Shown piece by piece: positions 6,238-18,777 of a DNA stretch of 18,910 nucleotides. Numbering within the stretch: position 1 is the first letter of the stretch; every line of letters begins with the position of its first letter. This DNA comes from a bacterium (lineage in GTDB: Bacteria; Cyanobacteriota; Vampirovibrionia; Gastranaerophilales; UBA9971). Location of the stretch: NCBI GenBank assembly GCA_037147175.1, contig JBAWVS010000051.1, positions 1-18,910 on the forward strand, read 5' to 3'. Both the position numbers and the translations under genes were made by a program. The notes below the pieces were generated by a model that worked only from the letters and a program-made list of their open reading frames with translations, was not told the DNA's origin and did not search any database.

Positions 6238-6795
6238 ATGGCAATTATCAAAACTGGAATGAAAAGACCAAATAAAAGTAATCTTTTTGATAATATTGAT
6301 TTATCGATATCTAATCATAAAATATCTTCTGCCATGGAATTGATGCAAAAATTATCAATAAACAGTTTTCCTGTTGATTTAAAAATTATTTTACAAAACT
6401 ATAATATTGAGTTAGAAAATACAAGTTTTGATAATGATGATATTTCTGGAATGTTAATTAAAAATAATGAAAAATATAAAGTAGTTGTTAATCAAAATCA
6501 TTCTCAAACTAGAAAAAACTTTACTATTGCTCATGAATTAGGTCATTATTTTCTACATAAAGATTTGAAAGATAAATTTGAAGATCGAATATTTTTTCGA
6601 GGAGCAGTTTCTGATAACCTTGAGTTTCAAGCAAACATTTTTGCAGGTGAACTTTTAATGCCGGAAGCTGAATTTAAAAAACAAATTCAGTCAGGGATTA
6701 ATACTATAGAAGAGCTAGCTGCTTATTTTGATGTTTCTACATTAGCACTTAGAGTACGAGCAAAACAGTTAAATCTATCGGGGCATGGTTTATGA
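6238..6795 (+). CDS. ImmA/IrrE-family zinc metallopeptidase
   Basis: The 185-residue protein has the family signature HELGH at residues 99-103 (IAHELGHYFLH) and the downstream third-ligand motif EFQANIFAGELLMP (E129). The N-terminal part (SINSFPVDLKIILQNYNIEL) is the usual entry segment of the family. ImmA/IrrE peptidases cleave repressor-like proteins to switch on phage, ICE or stress genes. AGGAG lies seven bases before the ATG, and the stop overlaps the next start by four bases (ATGA), so translation is coupled. No XRE repressor, its usual partner, lies in this cluster. It may therefore act on the membrane protein, the beta-family protein or an unlinked target. The family call is firm; the target is unknown. 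Confidence 0.88.
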   Translation: MAIIKTGMKRPNKSNLFDNIDLSISNHKISSAMELMQKLSINSFPVDLKIILQNYNIELENTSFDNDDISGMLIKNNEKYKVVVNQNHSQTRKNFTIAHELGHYFLHKDLKDKFEDRIFFRGAVSDNLEFQANIFAGELLMPEAEFKKQIQSGINTIEELAAYFDVSTLALRVRAKQLNLSGHGL

Positions 6796-7931
6796 TTAAA
6801 AATATTAAGTATGTACCAATAATTAAAACAGGAGATGCTGAGTTTAGAGCCGTAGCTAACTTAGACAAAGACTTGAAATCTAAGTTTATTCCTTTATTTG
6901 AACTTACTAGAGGACGAAAATCAAAAAATGATAAAACAGGTGAAATTAGAAAAAGACTTGATTCTTTAAAAAAATCTTATGCTAATTTTCCTTTTATTTT
7001 AGATTTAACAGGAGAGCCCGAATTAAAAAATGACGAAATAATTAATTTGTATTCAAACAATAATAATTATGAAAATTGGGTAAAATTTTGTATTGAACAA
7101 AAAAAAGAGTTGGGCTCTTTTTATCCTGTTGTACAGATTCAAGAAGAAGAAAATTATGATGATTATATTAAAAAACTAACTGAACAAATACGTCTTTTAT
7201 TAAGCGAAAACTTTGGTTATGTAGTTTTTCGATCTCAGGATGAAGAATTTTCAGAAAATTTAATTGAAGATATTGAAACTATTATTAAGTCAAAACAAAT
7301 AGAAAAGATCGAAGAAAAAATAATTTTTGTATTGGATTATCAGTATATAGTTAATTCTGTAAGTGGAATTGAAAATGCTGTATCATTTATAAATGCTTTA
7401 GAGAAACTTAATATTAAAAATATTGTAATCGCTTCGACTTCCTTTCCTGCAACAGTTTCTGAACATATGAGAGATAACTATATTGCTCTACCGATTAAAG
7501 AGAGAGACTTTTTTAATGAAATACAAAAACAAGCTTCTAAAAAAAATATAAATTTGATATATGGAGATTATGCATCAATAAACCCAAAAAGAAATGATAC
7601 TGTAACCTTTGCAAAAGGCTGGATCCCTAGAATTGATGTTCCTTCAAAAGATATGAATATCCACAGCAGAAGAAAGAGAAGAGATAAAACAAAAGAAGTT
7701 GTTAATAACAAAATAGAAGAGGTTTTTGTTTCTTATAAAGAAACATACAATGAACTTGCTCAAGAAGTTGTATCCCAGAATTACTTTAAGAATATATTAA
7801 AGTTTAACTGCTGGGGAATTAATGAAATTATTAAAACCTCTTATGGTAATGTATCTGGCTCATCCCCACGTTTTTGGATTTCTGTAAGAATGGATATCTA
7901 TATAAATCTTATAGTTAATACAATTTATTAG
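6792..7931 (+). CDS. Beta-family protein (T4 beta-like)
   Basis: This 379-residue protein opens with KYVPIIKTGDAEFRAVANL and FIPLFELTRGR, the hallmark start of the beta protein family (named after a phage T4 protein and probably a TIM-barrel-like fold). Other typical segments are PFILDL, SFYPVVQI and a C-terminal SPRFWISVRMDI. The biochemical activity of the family is not established as far as I know, but members recur in bacterial defence neighbourhoods. It is translationally coupled to the ImmA/IrrE gene (ATGA overlap), and its end overlaps the convergent nuclease-like gene by 17 bases. That arrangement resembles the sce7725/sce7726 pairs of annotated genomes, where a beta-like protein sits beside the nuclease-like partner. 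Confidence 0.75.
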   Translation: MIKNIKYVPIIKTGDAEFRAVANLDKDLKSKFIPLFELTRGRKSKNDKTGEIRKRLDSLKKSYANFPFILDLTGEPELKNDEIINLYSNNNNYENWVKFCIEQKKELGSFYPVVQIQEEENYDDYIKKLTEQIRLLLSENFGYVVFRSQDEEFSENLIEDIETIIKSKQIEKIEEKIIFVLDYQYIVNSVSGIENAVSFINALEKLNIKNIVIASTSFPATVSEHMRDNYIALPIKERDFFNEIQKQASKKNINLIYGDYASINPKRNDTVTFAKGWIPRIDVPSKDMNIHSRRKRRDKTKEVVNNKIEEVFVSYKETYNELAQEVVSQNYFKNILKFNCWGINEIIKTSYGNVSGSSPRFWISVRMDIYINLIVNTIY

Positions 7932-8541
7932 TCTTAATATTTCCAGTTAATGACAATAAATCATCTTTTGATATTACTTCATCATCAATATCTATTTTGA
8001 ATAAATTAAATAGTCTGCTATACCTTTCAAATAAACGCTCTATAGCTAAATGTCTAATTGTTTTAATTGATGCTTTCTTTAATGCTAATATTCTAAGTTC
8101 AAATACTGAAAACTTGCTTAGCCCCTTTTGAGCTATTAATTTTATTAAACTATTTTTATCAAGAAATTCTAATAAATTCATTTTATTGTATTTAGTTGTT
8201 TTTATAGGTTTTCTGATTACTTGAAAGCCATTATCATCAATAATATAAAGCCCAACATTAGTTGATAGATATTGTTTAATATGCTTTTCGGTTTTTTTAG
8301 TTACAACTAGTATTGTGTAATCAAATGTTGATAAATAATCTTCTAATTGAGATTCAAGATTTCTTGTATTATCTCTATCACTTTTAATTTCAAATGCGTA
8401 CGTTTTATTATTTTTTATCATAACCAAGTCAGCTCTTCTGAGTTTTGAAGAAAATAATACTTCATTTCCTAAAGTAAAATCTGATTCATTCTCTAAAAGC
8501 CACTGTATTAGTTTTATTTTTATGTCATTCGCTTTTAACAT
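7915..8541 (-). CDS. sce7726-family PD-(D/E)XK nuclease-like protein
   Basis: The 208-residue protein has a compact nuclease-like core: an N-terminal helix (IKIKLIQWLLEN), E27, D38 in RRADLVMI, and E51-I-K53 in AFEIKSD, followed by LESQLEDYLSTFDYTILVV. This D...ExK pattern with the RADL and EIKSD wording is typical of sce7726-family proteins. The C-terminal half is helical and basic. It runs against the beta-family gene with a tail-to-tail overlap, so antisense transcription could tune both. Only a weak binding-site candidate lies upstream of the ATG on its strand, so start strength is uncertain. A nucleic-acid-cutting role in defence is inferred from motif and context. Confidence 0.72.
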   Translation of the reverse strand: MLKANDIKIKLIQWLLENESDFTLGNEVLFSSKLRRADLVMIKNNKTYAFEIKSDRDNTRNLESQLEDYLSTFDYTILVVTKKTEKHIKQYLSTNVGLYIIDDNGFQVIRKPIKTTKYNKMNLLEFLDKNSLIKLIAQKGLSKFSVFELRILALKKASIKTIRHLAIERLFERYSRLFNLFKIDIDDEVISKDDLLSLTGNIKTNKLY

Positions 8542-10202: not shown

Positions 10203-11033
10203 TTAATTTTTGCCTTCTTCATATTCTATAAGTTCTTCCTGTTCCTCATCCGTGGTTTTATATAATTTCTCCCATTTTAAGGGCATACGCATTTTTTTAT
10301 TGTATAGAATCAGCATGGCTTCTGCATATCCTATTGAACCGGCTTTACGGTCTTTTGCCATTCTTGATAATTCTTTTATGGAACACCTGCCAACTTTTTC
10401 TTTAAAAATAGTTTCTTTTAATTCCTCTTCATAAGCCACAATTAATTTGGCGATTCCTCTTAATATAATTCCAGCTAATGAATTCTTTTCCCCTTCCCAA
10501 GTTCCTATGCTAAGTCTCAATGTCCGATCAAGCACATCAAGCTCGAATTTTTCATGGATATATTCAAGAGTTGAAATAGCACCTATTCCACCGGGAGCTT
10601 TTGATGTAGTAATATGTAGCCCATATGATTCGACCAAGTTCTTAATTATAAGCTGTTGCTCCTCGCCTGCTTCAATATTTGCCATGAAAATTTCATAGGC
10701 ACTTAATGGTTTTACATGGTTTTGCTGACGAGCAAAAACACTAGCTTCTTTTTTATAATGTAAATCATCATATATCATGCACCAGACAGGAGTTTCACGA
10801 GAACCGGAAGCAGCTGCTATTGTTTCAATTGTATGTTGTCCGTTAAAAACATAGTTTAATCCATCTCTTCTACTGATCTTCACCGGATTTATCTGATGAA
10901 GATTAAAATCTTTAACTGTACGTTTAACTTCTAAACGTCTTAATTTACGTTGATATGCCTGACTTGATACCAAATTTTTAATTGGAATCTTTTCAAAATA
11001 TACATCTGGAACAAATTGACTATAATCTTTCAT
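10203..11033 (-). CDS. ParB-fold protein, DUF6551-like
   Basis: The 276-residue protein has a ParB/Sulfiredoxin-like N-terminal core: IPIKNLVSSQAYQRKL, then NPVKISRRDGLNYVFNGQHTIE (about residues 49-70), where NGQHTIE replaces the usual DGxHR loop. The rest is helical with no recognised DNA-binding module. I believe this is the DUF6551 group, found near recombinases and plasmid or ICE genes in Firmicutes; the number is from memory. It is the last gene of a five-gene operon, coupled to the preceding ParB-like gene by an ATGA overlap with GAGGAGG upstream. ParB-fold proteins bind or cut nucleic acids or bind CTP; which applies here is unknown. Confidence 0.68.
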   Translation of the reverse strand: MKDYSQFVPDVYFEKIPIKNLVSSQAYQRKLRRLEVKRTVKDFNLHQINPVKISRRDGLNYVFNGQHTIETIAAASGSRETPVWCMIYDDLHYKKEASVFARQQNHVKPLSAYEIFMANIEAGEEQQLIIKNLVESYGLHITTSKAPGGIGAISTLEYIHEKFELDVLDRTLRLSIGTWEGEKNSLAGIILRGIAKLIVAYEEELKETIFKEKVGRCSIKELSRMAKDRKAGSIGYAEAMLILYNKKMRMPLKWEKLYKTTDEEQEELIEYEEGKN

Positions 11034-11974
11034 GAATCCTCCTCTACTGCTAATAACATCACGTCTATTGTATACTTTAATTGTTTTAATTCATTTTGTA
11101 ATTTTTCCCTGGCTTTTACGGACGTTTTATCAATATCCGCAATTCTTAATGTTCTGTTAATAGAACCAACCCACGAGGGAATCGTTAAAGAAAGACTTAC
11201 TATTTCAGCATCAGGGTCATAAGCAGGCATATCTTTCACTGTTTTTTGTTCTTTTTTTTCAGGAATAACCTTGCGAGCTTTAGAATAGTTTACAAAATCA
11301 CTATTATTGCTACTTAATTGAGTTTTTACATTATTAACTACTTCAGATGGCTGTTTTGCCAGTTTTGAAATATTATCATGAGAAATTTTCACTTTTCCTG
11401 TTAAAATTTCAGGAATAAGCTCAGGCTCTTTCTTTGCCAATGTATCTATTGATTTTGCATAACTACCATATTTCCTTACTGTTGCTTCTGAAATATGATA
11501 TTCTTTAGCAATTCTTTCTGCTGTCAATCCTTGTCCCTCTTGAATTTGAGGTTTATGGTAAATTGTATCACTAACCTCTTTTTCCGAAAATTGATTTTTG
11601 CCTAAAATATTTCGAGTACCAAGTTTCTTTTCTATTTCATATCTTTTTCCAATTAAATATTTTCTAGTTTCTTCGGAGATATTCCTGCGTCCAAGCTGAT
11701 TTGCACAAATCCAAGCAGTTATTTCATCTTTATTGTTAAAATCTATCTGTTGTATAAAAAATGGTATTTTTAAGCGAGTACAGATTTCATAACGATTATG
11801 TCCGTCAACTATTGTCTTTCCCCAGACACACAATGGCTCACGGCAACCGTCTTTTGAAATATTTTCCTCTAACTGCATATATTCATTTTGAGTAAGCGGA
11901 GGAATTAATTTTTTAAAATTTTCGTCTATTTGTAAATTGTAAATTTGTTTTTCTGCCATAAGTCCAGCCCTCAT
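11030..11974 (-). CDS. ParB/Spo0J-like DNA-binding protein
   Basis: The 314-residue protein has a ParB N-terminal domain (PPLTQNEYMQLEENI, then EPLCVWGKTIVDGHNRYEI, about residues 25-64) and a ParB-type helix-turn-helix (LTAERIAKEYHISEATVRKYG, about 145-167). The C-terminal third is charged and contains a proline/aspartate-rich linker and a final coiled helix. Such proteins bind palindromic sites for partition or regulation. No ParA ATPase is present in the window, which argues against ordinary partition. The start ATG at 11974 overlaps the upstream stop (ATGA). An alternative start at 11959 (MAEKQ) has a weaker binding site. It may be a regulator of, or accessory to, the recombinase element. 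Confidence 0.75.
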   Translation of the reverse strand: MRAGLMAEKQIYNLQIDENFKKLIPPLTQNEYMQLEENISKDGCREPLCVWGKTIVDGHNRYEICTRLKIPFFIQQIDFNNKDEITAWICANQLGRRNISEETRKYLIGKRYEIEKKLGTRNILGKNQFSEKEVSDTIYHKPQIQEGQGLTAERIAKEYHISEATVRKYGSYAKSIDTLAKKEPELIPEILTGKVKISHDNISKLAKQPSEVVNNVKTQLSSNNSDFVNYSKARKVIPEKKEQKTVKDMPAYDPDAEIVSLSLTIPSWVGSINRTLRIADIDKTSVKAREKLQNELKQLKYTIDVMLLAVEEDS

Positions 11975-12339
11975 TCATTTATAGAAACAGCTTCTGCCAT
12001 ATCAAACCTGATAATGTCTTGATTTTGAACTGTTTCTCCATAGATTCTATAGGATTTATCATTTTCCCAATCACTGCAAAGATTTCGCAAATTTTTAACC
12101 AGAGAAGAGCTGTATAATTCAAAAGATTTTTTATTTGTAAGCGACTTTTTGGAAATATGGTGCGCTTTAGGGTCTGACCTGTCACTTGGCAAAACGGCAA
12201 GTGTGCCTTCTTTTGGATTCACTAATAACAGAACATAATCAGGATTTCCGATAGAATGAAGAGTATCTTTATGAATTCGGATTACAGGTCTTTTAAGGTT
12301 CACTGAAATTGCAGGTTTTAACGTTTTATTTTTACTCAT
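11971..12339 (-). CDS. Short paralogue of the recombinase C-terminal domain
   Basis: The 122-residue protein has no named family that I recognise, but its core YVLLLVNPKEGTLAVLPS resembles YVEMLVNPNEKLFAVRPGS in the recombinase and FVQILINSEEKKLAVRPCS in the next gene upstream. Downstream positions also match: a helix (FELYSSSLVKNLRNL), a W preceding a Y-R-Y/I-x-G strand, and a final IRFDMAEA against LIFNMNET and FTFDLTAT. It is coupled to the 223-residue gene by an ATGAGTAA overlap, with GGAGG upstream. It may be a stand-alone partner that associates with the recombinase or binds the same DNA. Function is not known. Confidence 0.6.
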   Translation of the reverse strand: MSKNKTLKPAISVNLKRPVIRIHKDTLHSIGNPDYVLLLVNPKEGTLAVLPSDRSDPKAHHISKKSLTNKKSFELYSSSLVKNLRNLCSDWENDKSYRIYGETVQNQDIIRFDMAEAVSINE

Positions 12340-13003
12340 GATTTATTTCCTCCGGCTGGGCAACAATCTCCTGTTGTTCTTGAGCCTTATTTGCTTTATC
12401 TTTAATTCCAAAGACCGTATAACCGTTGAATATATTTATTTGAAGCTGTTTGCGATGTTCTTCTACCGGGAGACCAAACTGATTTTGCCATTGGGCAGGG
12501 AAAACAGGAGTACGAGATGTTTTTGGTTTTTCACCTTCCTGTTCTGTCCTTTGATAAATTTCCGTTGCAGTCAAATCAAAAGTAAACAAATATTCATTAC
12601 CGCTTTTAATCAATTTTCCGAGCAGTTTATACCTGTACTCAGCATTCCAATCCATCAAGTGAATAATTTTTGAAAAAAATACACGGCAAGTGATATGTTT
12701 AGGTTTTCGCTTTGGGGTACACCATAGGAAAGAATCCTTTTCATCGCCACTGCAAGGTCTGACAGCAAGCTTTTTTTCTTCGGAATTAATAAGTATTTGG
12801 ACAAAATCAATATCAGGCAATCTCTTTAGACAAGCGGTATTTAGTGAAATTCTGAAATTATTAAAAGTAATGGAAGGTTCAAATAAATGAGCAAAATACT
12901 CGCCCCGAACAACTTCGTATCCATCATAACTAAAACTTGTATCTTCAATAGCATCAATATCTGTAGTTATTGCTGCTGCTTCTTGTATCTCATTCTCCGT
13001 CAT
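12332..13003 (-). CDS. Second paralogue of the recombinase C-terminal domain
   Basis: The start is ATG 13003 (MTENEIQ), because AGGAG lies seven bases upstream on the minus strand and the in-frame ATG at 13027 has no such site. The 223-residue protein runs in parallel with the recombinase C-terminus: YEVVRGEYF against FEVARSQFF, then FVQILINSEEKKLAVRP, a W and CR/CS segment, MDWNAEYRYKLLGK against FDWNPEYKYRVRGI, FTFDLTATEI against LIFNMNETEI, and FPAQWQNQFG against YPPTWANTFG. It overlaps the recombinase stop by 14 bases. It could be a regulator or directionality partner that evolved by duplication of the recombinase tail. No known family was recognised. Confidence 0.65.
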   Translation of the reverse strand: MTENEIQEAAAITTDIDAIEDTSFSYDGYEVVRGEYFAHLFEPSITFNNFRISLNTACLKRLPDIDFVQILINSEEKKLAVRPCSGDEKDSFLWCTPKRKPKHITCRVFFSKIIHLMDWNAEYRYKLLGKLIKSGNEYLFTFDLTATEIYQRTEQEGEKPKTSRTPVFPAQWQNQFGLPVEEHRKQLQINIFNGYTVFGIKDKANKAQEQQEIVAQPEEINHE

Positions 13004-14873
13004 TAATAATCTCCTGTTGCATATCATTCATAATGTTTTGTATGTTGAGTTCTACTTCATCAGGATTTGTTACTTCTAAATCCGATTCTGTATAAGGCTT
13101 TCCTTCTTCTTTAGCTTTCCATTCGCTTTCTTCATTGAGAAGAGCCCATTCTTTTGCCTGATACTGGCTGTAATAGTCATTTCCAAAAGTATTTGCCCAT
13201 GTTGGAGGATACGCAATAATATCTTTATTAGGTCCGTTAGTAAAAGGTATTAAGCCTTTTGTCAGCTGCTCATCAGAAGGCTCTTCCTCAGATATTATTT
13301 GTGAAATAAATATTTCGGTTTCATTCATATTAAAAATTAGTAAAATTTCATCATCTTTTTGCCTGCGGATTCCTCTTACTCTATATTTATATTCAGGATT
13401 CCAATCAAACAATTCGTATAAAGTTTTGCTATATGCAGCACAACTTATATTCCGAGAACAATACAAGTTATTACGGGCTTTTCCCCATTGAACAGCGTTT
13501 CTTGTTTTTTCAGAACCCGGTCTAACAGCAAATAATTTTTCATTCGGATTAACCAGCATTTCAACATATTCGATTTTTTCAAATTTACGAATACATTCTG
13601 TGCTAAATTGTATATTTTTCAAAGAAAACGTCACGCATATTTTGTTTGTTGTATCAAAAAATTGTGAACGAGCAACCTCAAAATTTCGCAAGTCAAAATC
13701 GCCCGATTGTGCTTCTATCTCGATGTTTTCTTCTCCATCTTCATTAAATGGACACACACTGTCAGAAGCTTTTTGGTAATCTTTTGCTTTAAAGCCTGCC
13801 CATCTTGGATTTATTGATACAAAACCTGTAAGAACACCTTCCTGAACAACATTTAATTCAGGCAAAAAGCCTTTATGTCCATATTTTGCATTGCTGATAA
13901 GTCTTTGTACAGCTATAAAATTATCTCTGGAAATAATCCCGTCATGATGCTCTTCTTGTAGGTATTGGGCTCTGTCCCGATTGTTCTTTTTTGACTTATG
14001 GTCTAAATAATTGGGTGTCCATGTTTTTCTTGCCCGCACAGCACCGTAATGGCGTTCGTTTTGAAGAATTGGCAAAATTGCTCCTGCTGACCACACAGTA
14101 TTACCCTTTTTTGTTTTACGACAAAGCCGTGTAAGAGTTTCTGCTATCTGGCGACAGGAATATCCATAAATATAAATAAAGAAAATAAGGCGTACTATTT
14201 TTGCTTCTTCCTGATTTATAACAAGATTGCCATCATCATCTGTATCGTAACCAAGCAGGGATGGTGTTAAGAAAATTCCTCGCCTGAAGCGCATATCAAT
14301 AGATGCATTCATAGTTCTGCTTTTATTGTGCGACTCTTCCTGTGCGTTACTGGCTTTATAAATCAAATGCATTTCACTCTCAGGATCGAGTGTGTTAATG
14401 TTTTCTATCTCAAATAAAATACCAACAGGAGGTTTTAATTGTTTTAATTCTCTTGAAGTCTTGATGCAATCAACCACATTACGGGCAAATCTGGATACAC
14501 TTTTTGTCAAAATTAAGTCAATTTTCCCTGTTTCACAGTCTTTTATCATCCTAGCAAAAGCATCCCTACGTTTTAGTGATGTTCCTGAAATTCCCTCATC
14601 TGCGTATATATCTACAAGTTCCCAGCTTTTATATCTGTCAATAAAATCCATATAATGATTTTTTTGTAATTCATAAGAAGAAGTTTGTCTAGGGTCATCG
14701 GTTGAAACACGTGCGTAAACAGCCACACGTTTTGCACTTCCATCTTCATAGAAATTTAGATGCGGTTTAGCAGGGATTATCTGCAATTCATCAAAATCAA
14801 TTCCTTTGTATTTTTTTCGTATTTTTTCTTTTTGATCTTCAGTATTTTTCATTTGTATTTTATCTTCACTCAT
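12990..14873 (-). CDS. Large serine recombinase with an unusual C-terminal domain
   Basis: The 627-residue protein has a resolvase domain (about residues 48-200) with the catalytic serine S57 in VAVYARVSTDD, ADEGISGTSLKRR and TKSVSRFARN. A recombinase domain follows (LLGYDTDDDGNLVINQEEA, then ILQNERHYGAVRARK). The zinc ribbon that usually comes next, with its paired cysteines, is not visible. Instead the segment GVLTGFVSINPRWAGFKAKDY leads into a ~230-residue tail that resembles the next two proteins of the operon. Large serine recombinases integrate or excise phages and ICEs. The binding site before the ATG is weak, and an XRE gene sits 90 bases upstream on the same strand. The enzyme class is firm; the tail is novel to me. 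Confidence 0.88.
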   Translation of the reverse strand: MSEDKIQMKNTEDQKEKIRKKYKGIDFDELQIIPAKPHLNFYEDGSAKRVAVYARVSTDDPRQTSSYELQKNHYMDFIDRYKSWELVDIYADEGISGTSLKRRDAFARMIKDCETGKIDLILTKSVSRFARNVVDCIKTSRELKQLKPPVGILFEIENINTLDPESEMHLIYKASNAQEESHNKSRTMNASIDMRFRRGIFLTPSLLGYDTDDDGNLVINQEEAKIVRLIFFIYIYGYSCRQIAETLTRLCRKTKKGNTVWSAGAILPILQNERHYGAVRARKTWTPNYLDHKSKKNNRDRAQYLQEEHHDGIISRDNFIAVQRLISNAKYGHKGFLPELNVVQEGVLTGFVSINPRWAGFKAKDYQKASDSVCPFNEDGEENIEIEAQSGDFDLRNFEVARSQFFDTTNKICVTFSLKNIQFSTECIRKFEKIEYVEMLVNPNEKLFAVRPGSEKTRNAVQWGKARNNLYCSRNISCAAYSKTLYELFDWNPEYKYRVRGIRRQKDDEILLIFNMNETEIFISQIISEEEPSDEQLTKGLIPFTNGPNKDIIAYPPTWANTFGNDYYSQYQAKEWALLNEESEWKAKEEGKPYTESDLEVTNPDEVELNIQNIMNDMQQEIINDGE

Positions 14874-14933
14874 TATTCTGTTTTACCCATTTTGAAAGTA
14901 TAAAAGACAAAAAATAAAAAGAACATAAACCGG

Positions 14934-14965
14934 TAGTCAAATTTTGTGACTTATAGTCAAATTTT
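14934..14965 (-). promoter_or_regulatory. Tandem operator-like direct repeats
   Basis: The 12-mer tagtcaaatttt occurs at 14934-14945 and again at 14954-14965, exactly 20 bases apart (two helical turns). The pair sits between the XRE gene and the recombinase start and overlaps the XRE stop codon. It is a natural candidate for the XRE protein's binding site controlling the recombinase operon. Confidence 0.5.
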
Positions 14966-15290
14966 AACTAAATTTTTTTATTATTAGGGCGATTTCAAAT
15001 AACATTTGTTTTTGATTACTGTTAAAATCTCTACATATTTGTATCAAATCCGATTCGCATTCCCTGTGGGCATTTTTTAGATTTACAACCCAAAATGATT
15101 CAACTTTAACATGCAGGCTCTTACCTAATTTCTCTAAAGATTTTAAACTGGGTCTCTTTTTGCCGGTTTCGATACAGCTTATATATGAAGTCGACAAATT
15201 ACACATTTCGGCTAATTCCGCTTGTGTTAAACCCTTTTCAAGTCTGATTTTTTTAACTCTTTTTCCTATAATTTTCTTATCTAAAATCAT
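14964..15290 (-). CDS. XRE-family helix-turn-helix repressor
   Basis: The 108-residue protein has a clear XRE/Cro-CI helix-turn-helix: IGKRVKKIRLEKGLTQAELAEMCNLSTSYISCIETGKKRPSLKSLEKLGKSL, given in pieces as IGKRVKKIRLEKGLTQ, AELAEMCNLS, TSYISCIETGKKRP and SLKSLEKLGKSL (about residues 8-60). The short C-terminal tail is helical and probably mediates dimerisation. AGGAGG precedes the ATG, and a TATAAT (15357-15362, minus strand) is a possible -10 box. It lies directly upstream of the recombinase operon on the same strand with operator-like repeats between. It therefore probably keeps the element silent. It is a possible target type for ImmA/IrrE peptidases, but the one in this window belongs to a separate cluster. 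Confidence 0.88.
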   Translation of the reverse strand: MILDKKIIGKRVKKIRLEKGLTQAELAEMCNLSTSYISCIETGKKRPSLKSLEKLGKSLHVKVESFWVVNLKNAHRECESDLIQICRDFNSNQKQMLFEIALIIKKFS

Positions 15291-15405: not shown

Positions 15406-15412
15406 AGTTTAG

Positions 15413-15829
15413 GCTAGGCTTACTGAAGGAACAAGTGAAATGCCAATGGTTAGTGCCTCTGCTGAAGGAACATCTTCTTCAGCATATAGTCGGGTTCATA
15501 TATAATTCTATAGTTAGTGAGTTAGCCAGCAGAAAGTGGATCGACCCAATAAATCAAAGTGTTGACAACGCTAATGCCTACATAAAATGGCGGTATCTTT
15601 TGATAACTTGGCAACATGCAAAACATGGGACAGTACTAATTCCGTATGGGTAGCTACTACAGACTGTTCGGCGGCTTCAGCTGCAAACACATCCGCTGAC
15701 ATAATACAAGGGCTGCATAATTATGAATTTGCCTCAGGTGCAGGTAGTCTGGACTTTAAAGCTGTTTTGTACAACACAGACGGCGTAACAATTCCTGATA
15801 TAGATCAAGTTGTAGTCAATTATTATTAA
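15413..15829 (+). pseudogene. Frameshifted phage tail-protein remnant
   Basis: Coding-like peptide moves between frames. One frame gives TEGTSEMPMVSASAEGTSSS and stops at 15503-15505. Another then carries DPINQSVDNANAYIKW (about 15545-15590). A third, open from 15587 to 15829, gives FDNLATCKTWDSTNSVW and ends in FKAVLYNTDGVTIPDIDQVV. These pieces resemble phage tail or fibre proteins, and the last is intact as an 80-residue frame. At least two frame changes within 420 bases and no binding site before 15587 argue for decay. A programmed frameshift or an assembly error is less likely. It is not a visible duplicate of the tail gene at the left end of the window. Confidence 0.55.
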
Positions 15830-15902
15830 TAAACTGTTAAAGTTTTTATAAATCTATATTGAATTTGACTACAACCTGTATAGTTTTGGGAGTTATGGAT
15901 TA

Positions 15903-16245: not shown

Positions 16246-16521
16246 ATGTCTACTGAAGAAAGAATTTTAAGACCTGATCCAAAAGGACGTATCTCTCTTG
16301 GTATTGCTGTAGTTAAAAACATAAGTAGCTACAAAGCAAGCTTTAATGACGATGGAACAATTGTACTTGAGCCACAAATTGAAATTCCAGCACGTGAAGC
16401 ATGGCTATATCAAAATCCTGAAGCCATAAAAAAAGTACGAAAAGGTCTAGAAGATGCAGCTCAAGGCAAAATTAAGAAAAGAAAAAGTTTTTCTCAATAT
16501 GCAGATGATGAGATCGAATAA
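16246..16521 (+). CDS. Antitoxin of a type II pair, AbrB-like start
   Basis: The 91-residue protein begins RILRPDPKGRISLG, which resembles the DPKGR opening of antitoxins that I associate with cyanobacteria. It continues with DDGTIVLEP and IPAREAWLYQNPEAIKKVRKGL, and ends in an acidic, probably disordered tail (SQYADDEIE) of the kind that wraps a toxin. The first part fits a swapped-hairpin AbrB/MazE-like DNA-binding fold. The stop codon directly abuts the toxin start with no gap, so the pair is translated together. It probably represses its own promoter at 16185-16212. The antitoxin role is inferred from architecture and the partner. Confidence 0.72.
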   Translation: MSTEERILRPDPKGRISLGIAVVKNISSYKASFNDDGTIVLEPQIEIPAREAWLYQNPEAIKKVRKGLEDAAQGKIKKRKSFSQYADDEIE

Positions 16522-16818
16522 ATGCCTTTCGAATTAGAATTTACAGAACAAGCGGATAATGATCTCAATGAGTTGGAGAGTAATAAAAGCTTACAAAAAC
16601 GACTTAAAGCGGTTAGAAAAGCATTGGGAAATCTTGAATTAAATCCAAAACATTCAATCTTAAACACTCATAAATATTATTCTTTGAGCGGCCCAAATGG
16701 AGAAGAAATTTTTGAGTCTTATGCTGAGAATAAAACTCCTGCTGCGTATAGAATCTTTTGGTATTATGGACCTGGCAAACAGGTAATAACCATTATTGCT
16801 ATAACTCCGCATCCGTAA
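16522..16818 (+). CDS. RelE/ParE-like toxin (ITPHP-ending family)
   Basis: The 98-residue protein starts LEFTEQADNDLNELE, the usual first helix of RelE/ParE-type toxins. It then has LNTHKYYSLSGPNGEEIFES and YAENKTPAAYRIFWYYGPGK, ending ITIIAITPHP. The closing strands and terminal ITPHP recur in a toxin group that I associate with cyanobacteria. Such toxins usually cleave mRNA at the ribosome or inhibit gyrase; I cannot tell which from the sequence. It directly follows its antitoxin. It faces a second toxin-antitoxin pair on the other strand, with 78 bases between the two stops and nothing recognisable in them. Confidence 0.75.
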   Translation: MPFELEFTEQADNDLNELESNKSLQKRLKAVRKALGNLELNPKHSILNTHKYYSLSGPNGEEIFESYAENKTPAAYRIFWYYGPGKQVITIIAITPHP

Positions 16819-16896
16819 AAAAGACGCTTAACGTTATACACCTTACGTCCAATAATTTAAAATACTTAGCTAACATTTGCAATTTAAATCTATCAA

Positions 16897-17181
16897 TCAT
16901 TTTATAGGGAACTTTCTTGAAGTATGTATAACTCTGAGGATTTCTAAAGCTCCATTCTTCACTCTGTATGGGATGATATAAGGCAAATCATTTACTACAA
17001 ACTCTCTTGTTCCCAGTATCCTTCCTTTTCTGCCTATACTCGGATTATTTACAATAATAGTTTCAACTTTATCTAATATAGTTAAAATTACATCTATTGC
17101 GGCTGTGGGATTATCTTTAAAAATATATGATTCAATATCGTCTAAATCTTGATTGGCTGCCGGTGTGTAAATTATGTCCAT
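16897..17181 (-). CDS. ParE/RelE-superfamily toxin
   Basis: The 94-residue protein matches the ParE branch of the RelE/ParE superfamily: IIYTPAANQDLDDIESYIF at the start, a helix DVILTILDKVETIIVNNPSIG, RKGRILGTREFVV, and the closing ALEILRVIHTSRKFP. The terminal LRVIHTSRK is the usual ending of the group. ParE toxins typically poison DNA gyrase, and others cut mRNA. The gene follows its antitoxin with no spacer (TAG then ATG). The sequence looks complete and in frame, so the module is probably active. Confidence 0.85.
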   Translation of the reverse strand: MDIIYTPAANQDLDDIESYIFKDNPTAAIDVILTILDKVETIIVNNPSIGRKGRILGTREFVVNDLPYIIPYRVKNGALEILRVIHTSRKFPIK

Positions 17182-17430
17182 CTATTGAGCGGCCTTCTTC
17201 TTCAACCATTTAGACTTTATCTCAGTATGTGATACAAACTCACCGTTATCAGCTTGTCTTATGCCCTCTTGAATAGCTGCAATCTGCCATGATTGAACCT
17301 CTAAATAGTTGTCTATCGCTTCCAGTACAAGAGTAGACTTGTTTCTATCCGTTGCATCTGCTAGTAATTCGAGTTTTGTTTTAGTTTCTTCAGGAAGTCT
17401 TAATGACATCATATTTTTATTAATTGCCAT
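17182..17430 (-). CDS. Ribbon-helix-helix (CopG/ParD-like) antitoxin
   Basis: The 82-residue protein begins MMSLRLPEETKTKLELLADA, the beta strand plus first helix of a ribbon-helix-helix protein, followed by DRNKSTLVLEAIDNYLEVQ, the second helix. The tail (IQEGIRQADNGEFVSHTEI) is the typical toxin-binding segment. Such antitoxins bind their own promoter as dimers and neutralise the toxin. An imperfect inverted repeat 21-46 bases upstream (17451-17476) is the likely operator. It ends exactly where the toxin begins. The family call is firm. Confidence 0.88.
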   Translation of the reverse strand: MAINKNMMSLRLPEETKTKLELLADATDRNKSTLVLEAIDNYLEVQSWQIAAIQEGIRQADNGEFVSHTEIKSKWLKKKAAQ

Positions 17431-17574: not shown

Positions 17575-18777
17575 TCATAATCTGACGGCTGTTCTTACCG
17601 GTAAATCTGTACATGGTAATAAAAGCTTTGAATAATCTTCATCTGAATGAATAAACAGATTATTGATTTTATAACAAAGTGCTTTGCGTATATTATATCC
17701 TTTTGTCTGGCGCAACATGCCAAGATAGCTATTCATGGTTGCACGGAAGCTTTTTAAAGTCTTCCCGTTTAATCTGTCAGAGTTATTTCCCCACTTTTTT
17801 ACAGTATAAAAGGCTTTATTAATAGTTTTCTTTCGTAAATACATACGAGCAGGCTTTATTATGAAACCAACAAAATCAATTCCTGAAAAAACAGTATTTA
17901 TAGACTTTTTATGGGGATGTAACTTTAATTTAAGACGGTTTTTAAGAAATTGATCTATCTTATCATACCATTCATTTAATTGCTTCGGATCATCGTGTAA
18001 AATTACAAAATCATCAACATATCGGCAATAATATTTGCATTTTAGTTCATGTTTAATAAATTGATCCAGCAAGTTCAAATAAACGTTGCTGAAAAATTGG
18101 CTTGTAAGATTACCTATTGGCAAGCCATGAGAATTTGGTGTGTTCCATAAACTTTTTTTAGCCGGTAATAATTGAAATAGTTTAGGCTCAGACTGAATTA
18201 TTGCTTTTTGTCGTGGATCATTGTATATAATTTGCTCAATAAGGCTAATTATCCAATCTTCCGGTATATAACGCTTTAATTCCTCAAAAAGAATAGCTTT
18301 ATCAATACTGACAAAGAAATTAGCGATATCAGCCTTAAGATAATATGATTTTTTCGTATAATTTGAAGTAGCACTCTTTGCGTAATGCTGTAAACGTTTG
18401 CAGGCATGAAGAGTACCCTTTTTAGGAATACAGCTAAAAGTATCATGAACAAAACGGTTATAAAATCGGTCTTTTACAGCATTATAAACAAGGTGATGAA
18501 CAATTCGGTCTCTAAAATCAGCTGCCCAGACTTCTCTATACTTTGGATCAGTAACTATAAAACAGATACTTTTCCCGATAGTATAAGTGCCTTCTTTTAA
18601 TTCGCTATAAAGCTTCATTAAGTTTAGTTCAAGCTCAAATTCAAAAGTAAGTGCATTTATTGTATTTCGTTTATTGCGTCTGCAATCAAAATAAGCATTA
18701 AATAAATTTAAAAGAGTTAATTGTTCAGAAAATATTTTTAATCTTTCCGCTCTTTGATTTTTAGTGGTTTTAGACAT
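17575..18777 (-). CDS. Reverse transcriptase, diversity-generating-retroelement type
   Basis: The 400-residue protein carries the reverse transcriptase motifs in order: REVWAADFRDRIVHHLVYNA (about 81-100), YLKADIANFFVSID with catalytic D150, GLPIGNLTSQFFSNVYLNLLDQF with IGNLTSQ at 221-227, CRYVDDFVIL with the YVDD box at 253-256, and DFVGFIIK. The IGxxxSQ form of motif 4 is the hallmark of retroelements that diversify target genes by adenine mutagenesis. No maturase or HNH domain follows, which argues against a group II intron. No accessory protein (Avd) or template repeat is recognisable in the window. The start has no clear binding site. The family is firm; the subtype is probable and could be another unclassified group. 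Confidence 0.82.
   Translation of the reverse strand: MSKTTKNQRAERLKIFSEQLTLLNLFNAYFDCRRNKRNTINALTFEFELELNLMKLYSELKEGTYTIGKSICFIVTDPKYREVWAADFRDRIVHHLVYNAVKDRFYNRFVHDTFSCIPKKGTLHACKRLQHYAKSATSNYTKKSYYLKADIANFFVSIDKAILFEELKRYIPEDWIISLIEQIIYNDPRQKAIIQSEPKLFQLLPAKKSLWNTPNSHGLPIGNLTSQFFSNVYLNLLDQFIKHELKCKYYCRYVDDFVILHDDPKQLNEWYDKIDQFLKNRLKLKLHPHKKSINTVFSGIDFVGFIIKPARMYLRKKTINKAFYTVKKWGNNSDRLNGKTLKSFRATMNSYLGMLRQTKGYNIRKALCYKINNLFIHSDEDYSKLLLPCTDLPVRTAVRL

Follow-up and report, generated by a model that had tools for sequence, protein, structure and literature searches.

Free copies of a recombinase's tail domain in a five-gene phage cassette built around a large serine recombinase

A serine recombinase gene followed directly by genes for two small proteins that resemble the recombinase's own C-terminus raises the question of what these free copies do, and whether the enzyme is an integrase at all. 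Such an arrangement lies in a stretch of 18,910 nucleotides (contig JBAWVS010000051.1, assembly GCA_037147175.1, Gastranaerophilales UBA9971), referred to at its full length as the window. The initial annotation held that one domain without a named family is present there three times in a row, in the recombinase tail and in both small proteins, and that duplication of a recombinase domain had yielded the stand-alone partners. We call the recombinase Rec (627 residues, 12990–14873), its tail domain A (core at residues ~413–524 of Rec, 13302–13637), the larger stand-alone protein B (12332–13027) and the smaller one C (122 residues, 11971–12339); all are encoded on the minus strand. B comprises 231 residues, the previously given length of 223 being counted from the second ATG. 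Loci carrying these genes were gathered from GTDB genomes, IMG/VR and phage records; 78 hold all five genes of the block described below, and 85 hold a full Rec.

The kinship of A, B and C, in each of which the domain spans ~115 residues, was apparent in every comparison. BLASTP among the window's own sequences paired A with B at E 1e-23, A with C at E 6e-7 and B with C at E 9e-6; the corresponding Smith–Waterman Z scores were 32.6, 10.9 and 9.3, and 0 of 1000 shuffles equaled the real score. Profile–profile comparison, using 58, 63 and 65 relatives of A, B and C, respectively, was significant for every pair: A–B with a probability of 99.96% (E 5e-39), A–C with 98.9% (E 2e-17) and B–C with 98.6% (E 1e-15). 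AlphaFold2 models of A and C, compared by the order of their strands (b) and helices (a) rather than by coordinates, share the succession b-b-a-b-b...b-a-b-b; the predicted local distance difference test (pLDDT) score was 92.5 for C and 79.6 for the A tail, exceeding 90 in the domain core. The threefold occurrence of the domain is thereby borne out, with some correction to the motifs first cited for it. P-x-x-W-x-N-x-F-G is found in A and B only, as claimed, but the second strand of C ends in LPSD rather than PGS or PCS, and the supposed Y-R-Y strand reads Y-(R/K)-(V/L/I)-x-G.

The proposal that the domain lacks a named family also held. B and C gave no above-chance match in Pfam, PHROGs, NCBIfam or PADLOC; in Pfam, no family, XisH and XisI included, was hit at E up to 1, their profiles matched no PDB sequence at E up to 10, and the tail domain of Rec is covered by no Pfam, PHROG or NCBIfam family. 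By these sequence comparisons, B and C belong to no described accessory family. Structural searches were little more specific. Foldseek rows against the PDB were insignificant, with sliding clamps at the top and template modeling (TM) scores <0.25, and were discarded. VIA returned no structural neighbor for A, and for C the best neighbor was MraZ (9sz7_K; Z 3.8, root mean square deviation 3.9 over 89 residues), too weak for assignment; a profile comparison of the domain with 22 MraZ sequences was negative (0.24%), and an MraZ or AbrB-like fold is only a lead. In BFVD, C matched small uncharacterized phage proteins (E down to 1e-4, TM 0.5–0.7) of similar predicted fold to which no function is attached.

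What kind of enzyme carries this tail? Rec possesses a resolvase domain (14277–14726; PF00239, E 8e-25) and a recombinase domain (13893–14210; PF07508, E 1e-20), both on the minus strand, and the catalytic residues R55, S57, R128 and R131 are invariant in 60 of 60 diverse Rec relatives, which suggests selection for strand cleavage. From ~13871 downward, the sequence is novel. The zinc ribbon PF13408 was detected in none of three Rec proteins (window, loci L003 and L088) and was present in 4 of 4 neighboring int/inv proteins checked; with the ribbon missing, the new domain occupies the usual place of zinc ribbon and coiled coil. Judged by its domains, Rec is a large serine recombinase minus one defining part. 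It is like the serine integrases of the phiC31, Bxb1 and A118 type in its resolvase and recombinase domains and key residues, and unlike them in that it lacks the zinc ribbon, has its new domain repeated in separate genes, and is not the phage's only integration system. The recombinase of the fdxN element, XisF, is a large serine recombinase that works with two small proteins, XisH and XisI; Rec matches the NCBIfam model of XisF weakly, at 54 of 375 bits, whereas B and C match neither XisH nor XisI and are homologous to Rec itself. The best NCBIfam match of Rec is CcrB of the SCCmec element (E 4e-32), in the N-terminal part only and at 111.7 bits against the 900 needed; CcrA and CcrB are, moreover, two full recombinases and not domain copies.

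Rec, B and C are part of a larger cassette. Beyond C follow genes, again on the minus strand, for a ParB-like protein of 314 residues (11030–11974; PHROG 4715, E 2e-6) and for a DUF6551 protein of 276 residues (10203–11033; PF20188, E 2e-30, 106 bits against a cut-off of 26.8), which belongs to the ParB-CTPase fold class. The order Rec-B-C-ParB-like-DUF6551, with the genes adjacent, was found in 78/78 complete loci, so that the trio noticed in the window recurs elsewhere with B and C adjoining Rec. The remaining seven loci are mostly cut by contig ends, and two are without the ParB-like gene or carry a truncated version. No extra gene, and hence no ParA, lies inside the block in any of the 78 loci, and the window genes flanking it are not ParA. 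Phage DUF6551 fusions bind cytidine or adenosine triphosphate (CTP or ATP)(PMC12704722); this finding concerns relatives and is the sole experimental anchor for the cassette. The same study describes orphan ParB-like and DUF6551 proteins of mobile elements as a class frequent in phages (PMC12704722), and its main text mentions neither recombinases nor integrases and draws no link to a serine recombinase cassette; the Heliusviridae paper, likewise, contains neither word in its main text.

Carriers of the cassette are Ca. Heliusvirales phages, which are abundant in the human gut, as well as Mu-like phages that infect other hosts. In the bacterial order of the window, B occurs in 10 of 286 genomes, a sporadic distribution that fits a mobile element. 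As to the cassette being a free mobile element in its own right, phages closely sharing the flanking integrase region also carry it, and there is thus no empty site for comparison. Two unusual records deserve mention: a 113,553-bp isolate contig (G003) bears two cassettes (L042 and L043) and six large serine recombinases, probably in two neighboring prophages, and a 247-kb record annotated as Subdoligranulum 'plasmid' 44 (OY725878, L205) bears D-Rec-B-C without the ParB-like and DUF6551 genes, D being the additional open reading frame (ORF) described next.

Two lines of evidence suggest that parts of this recombinase have been copied and separated: i) dead copies of its catalytic half, and ii) split forms of the enzyme. 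Directly before Rec in 31 of the 85 full-Rec loci lies D, an ORF of ~200 residues (for instance L065:7257-7985) that is a stand-alone resolvase domain with a weak PF00239 match and that has lost the catalytic serine position and Arg128 in 31/31 cases; it is absent from the window. In two distant Heliusvirales records, PV036425 and PV036413, Rec stops after the recombinase domain (~400 residues) and is followed by a gene for a single tail domain of ~160 residues; this pairing of tail-less core and separate tail was located at L203:1590-3287 and L204:3906-5614. In a tree of tail domains, A (59/59), B (64/64) and C (66/66) form three pure groups, and the single-domain proteins are placed between C and A+B. 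Support is low to moderate (0.72, 0.33 and 0.88), as expected of an alignment with 118 columns. That A, B and C are each monophyletic indicates one duplication after which the copies were kept together, in agreement with the duplication first proposed. The simplest history begins with a Rec core and one free tail domain, followed by duplication and then by fusion of one copy. The presence of the tail as a fusion in certain phages and as its own protein in related ones, a classical sign of cooperating parts, argues that core and tail domain work together. The suggestion that the free domains assemble with the recombinase gains from this, the fused and split forms supporting a complex without proving one; the picture of a single recombinase whose parts were duplicated and split to make up the system likewise supports a heteromeric complex.

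How closely the cassette genes share a history was measured by the Spearman correlation of pairwise distances over loci. All 15 cassette-bearing Heliusvirales records (15/15) encode exactly three large serine recombinases; the two other than Rec constitute a pair, and each of the four such proteins that were checked has a zinc ribbon. The members of this integrase pair correlate with each other at 0.85. Within the cassette, the values were 0.75 for Rec–B, 0.60 for Rec–DUF6551, 0.59 for B–C and 0.54 for Rec–C, and Rec, B and C correlate with the neighboring integrase (int) at 0.10–0.28; by this measure, the history of the cassette differs from that of the neighboring integrases. The co-evolution of the parts with their own Rec also bears on whether the non-catalytic parts act as a weapon or shield, entering rivals' recombinases as poison subunits. 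Inactive or non-catalytic paralogues of both halves of Rec exist, and the sequence of the putative site described below varies between phages, as such a role might have it; against this stand the co-evolution and the PADLOC defense models, which Rec, B, the ParB-like and the DUF6551 proteins do not match and C matches only at chance level. We regard a poison-subunit role as highly improbable.

The most familiar role for Rec would be that of a phage integrase, with B, C and, where present, D as directionality or accessory factors and the neighboring recombinase pair serving otherwise. Directionality factors do bind the C-terminal zinc domain of serine integrases, as described for phiC31 gp3 (PMC5814800), the window's cassette stands at a host junction on a contig with no second large serine recombinase, and the genome of one relative (G020) encodes no PF07508 protein besides Rec. 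No att sites were identified. However, other integration genes accompany the cassette in all 15 Heliusvirales records and in the Mu-like relative of the window. This relative, contig G012, is the closest viral one; it encodes a Mu-type portal, protease and transposase and a MuB-like ATPase, and shares with the window genes for a D12 methyltransferase (79%) and gpG (57%), by which the window is probably a Mu-like prophage. MuA is absent from the window's short contig, and a MuA with 49% identity lies elsewhere in the same genome. G020 likewise has a Mu-type transposase on the contig that carries Rec. A Mu-type phage needs no serine integrase, and this applies to G020 as well. Together with the differing histories of cassette and integrase pair, and with a palindrome that is intact and hence no split attP, these observations make an integrase role unlikely; the Rec complex is probably not the prophage integrase. 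They also leave unsupported the earlier idea that the free domains control the choice between integration and excision.

A candidate site of action lies just ahead of the cassette. Most loci have an Xre/helix-turn-helix gene, in one orientation or the other, immediately ahead of Rec or D; in the window, it encodes a 108-residue Xre-type repressor (14964–15290, minus strand; HTH_3, PF01381, E 3e-14). Across the family, the interval separating the repressor from Rec (or D) holds a palindrome of ~36 bp with a half-site of roughly ATNRACCANAGGTCAA, its start usually 75–100 bp before the Rec start codon. Its score exceeded the 95th percentile of shuffles in 65% (before Rec) and 61% (before D) of loci, against 3% for a coding control. 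The window's copy (14925–14961) is the only match there to the family consensus, with a position weight matrix score of 18.6, and is by itself only modestly above shuffles. In 20 well-formed palindromes, the arms change in step, one dyad position being symmetric in 20/20 with all four bases seen, a count inflated by the choice of these palindromes for good symmetry. In most genomes scanned, the palindrome before the cassette was the best match, with no second copy of similar score; W01 and W02 begin inside the cassette and lack the site, and W08 has one higher, unrelated match. Prophages and phages alike carry the palindrome in intact form. Its role could be that of an operator or of the one recombination site used by a system for multimer resolution. 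In one phage represented by two contigs, a near-identical palindrome lies between the endolysin gene and the integrase pair (L239:4712-4741, L240:4601-4630), with no cassette within the 8 kb examined; for a palindrome this could be chance.

Were the palindrome an operator, Rec, B and C might mainly regulate transcription or lysogeny, as a repressor-like assembly on the palindrome and other DNA with cleavage secondary. The Xre repressor next to the cassette would suit such a role, as would the symmetric variation of the palindrome between phages, which is like that of phage operators, and its overlap with the -35 element of a promoter-like site for the cassette (14911–14940, minus strand; a consensus match of a kind occurring at chance frequency in the region). 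The invariance of all catalytic residues across 60 diverged Rec proteins speaks against cleavage being secondary, and we consider a chiefly regulatory role improbable. The recombinase might instead switch tail genes or others by DNA inversion, in the manner of Gin in phage Mu, for in the Mu-like relative the cassette is a neighbor of the tail-lysis region, and it is oriented to the gpG and D12 genes there (L133-L135) in the opposite sense to that in the window. Yet every pair compared among 12 related Heliusvirales genomes was collinear and showed no inverted match of at least 250 bp, the palindrome has no clear second copy, and Rec is of the large type, unlike the small Gin-type recombinases; an invertase is thus very unlikely.

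Taken together, a model of a heteromeric recombination complex distinct from the integrase emerges, to which as a whole we assign a probability of about 0.5. The cassette would encode a single DNA-recombination complex in which Rec alone is catalytic and has the ~115-residue domain in exchange for zinc ribbon and coiled coil. B and C would most likely be placed next to Rec at its DNA site, supplying contacts or geometry, and D, where present, would join as a dead copy of the catalytic domain. That Rec, B and C form such a complex is the part we lean slightly toward. The ParB-like and DUF6551 proteins, as members of the ParB nucleotide-switch class, probably serve to load the complex onto DNA or to keep it there, and the palindrome is probably where either the adjacent repressor or the complex controls expression of the cassette. 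The likeliest reaction would be recombination between copies of one phage site, as in multimer resolution, circularization or the separation of replicating copies; resolution or circularization at one site, as a specific assignment by analogy, is doubtful. The P1 Cre-loxP system with ParAB offers a parallel, in which Cre is a tyrosine recombinase and P1 a plasmid prophage. It is alike in combining a recombinase, a ParB-type protein and, for the favored reaction, a single site per phage genome, while the cassette differs in its serine-type Rec and in having no ParA in the block.

Several observations weigh against this model. The ParB-like protein correlates weakly with the other cassette members (0.14–0.32), and this, together with the two cassettes in which it is missing or truncated, means that it may lie outside the core of the system. 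A lone site ahead of the genes is as compatible with an operator as with a site of recombination. The 12 related phage genomes revealed no inversion and no reaction product, and complex formation, the role of the ParB-class proteins and the reaction are all steps that we infer. In the window, the cassette and repressor adjoin host sequence at the prophage edge, where an integrase is expected: the window's sequence from 15549 onward has 87% identity with the end of a host gene located on a different contig. Prophage ends read from the starts of IMG/VR contigs were rejected, as these starts coincide with gene ends and are trimming artefacts. Across this edge, positions 15408–15835 contain what is left, in degraded form, of the 3' part of a pilin-like host gene with RCC1 repeats, an intact copy of which lies on contig C11 of the same genome.

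Other parts of the window carry candidate defense genes. An M78 peptidase, a Beta protein and a nuclease-like gene (6238–8541) match the PADLOC models capP/RmrA, beta with PD-Lambda-2_C, and cll, and likely form a prophage-borne defense cluster; a DUF4268 gene at 2555–3445 matches PDC-S11. Beyond the prophage edge, two small gene pairs at 16246–17430 resemble RelE/ParE toxin–antitoxin systems on reading the sequence, and a reverse transcriptase (17575–18777; RVT_1, E 3e-19) has RT and RT_UG17 as its best PADLOC matches.

To our knowledge, the usual picture of serine recombinases is of homo-oligomers whose strand exchange involves no more than one small helper. A conserved gene set in which both enzyme halves have free, non-catalytic paralogues would represent a novel architecture for a recombinase, and the naturally occurring separation of core and tail suggests that such an enzyme is modular and could be steered in trans. 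In its most far-reaching form, which we advance tentatively and would rate short of even odds, unrelated phages share a dedicated hetero-oligomeric serine recombination machine of Rec, its dead copy and two free tails, driven by two ParB-fold nucleotide switches and acting on phage DNA at a single palindrome, apart from integration. The cassette also provides a concrete setting for the role of orphan ParB-fold proteins in prophages. The occurrence of this fixed block in very different phages that are already equipped with other routes of DNA insertion points to an unstudied, multi-part recombination machine.

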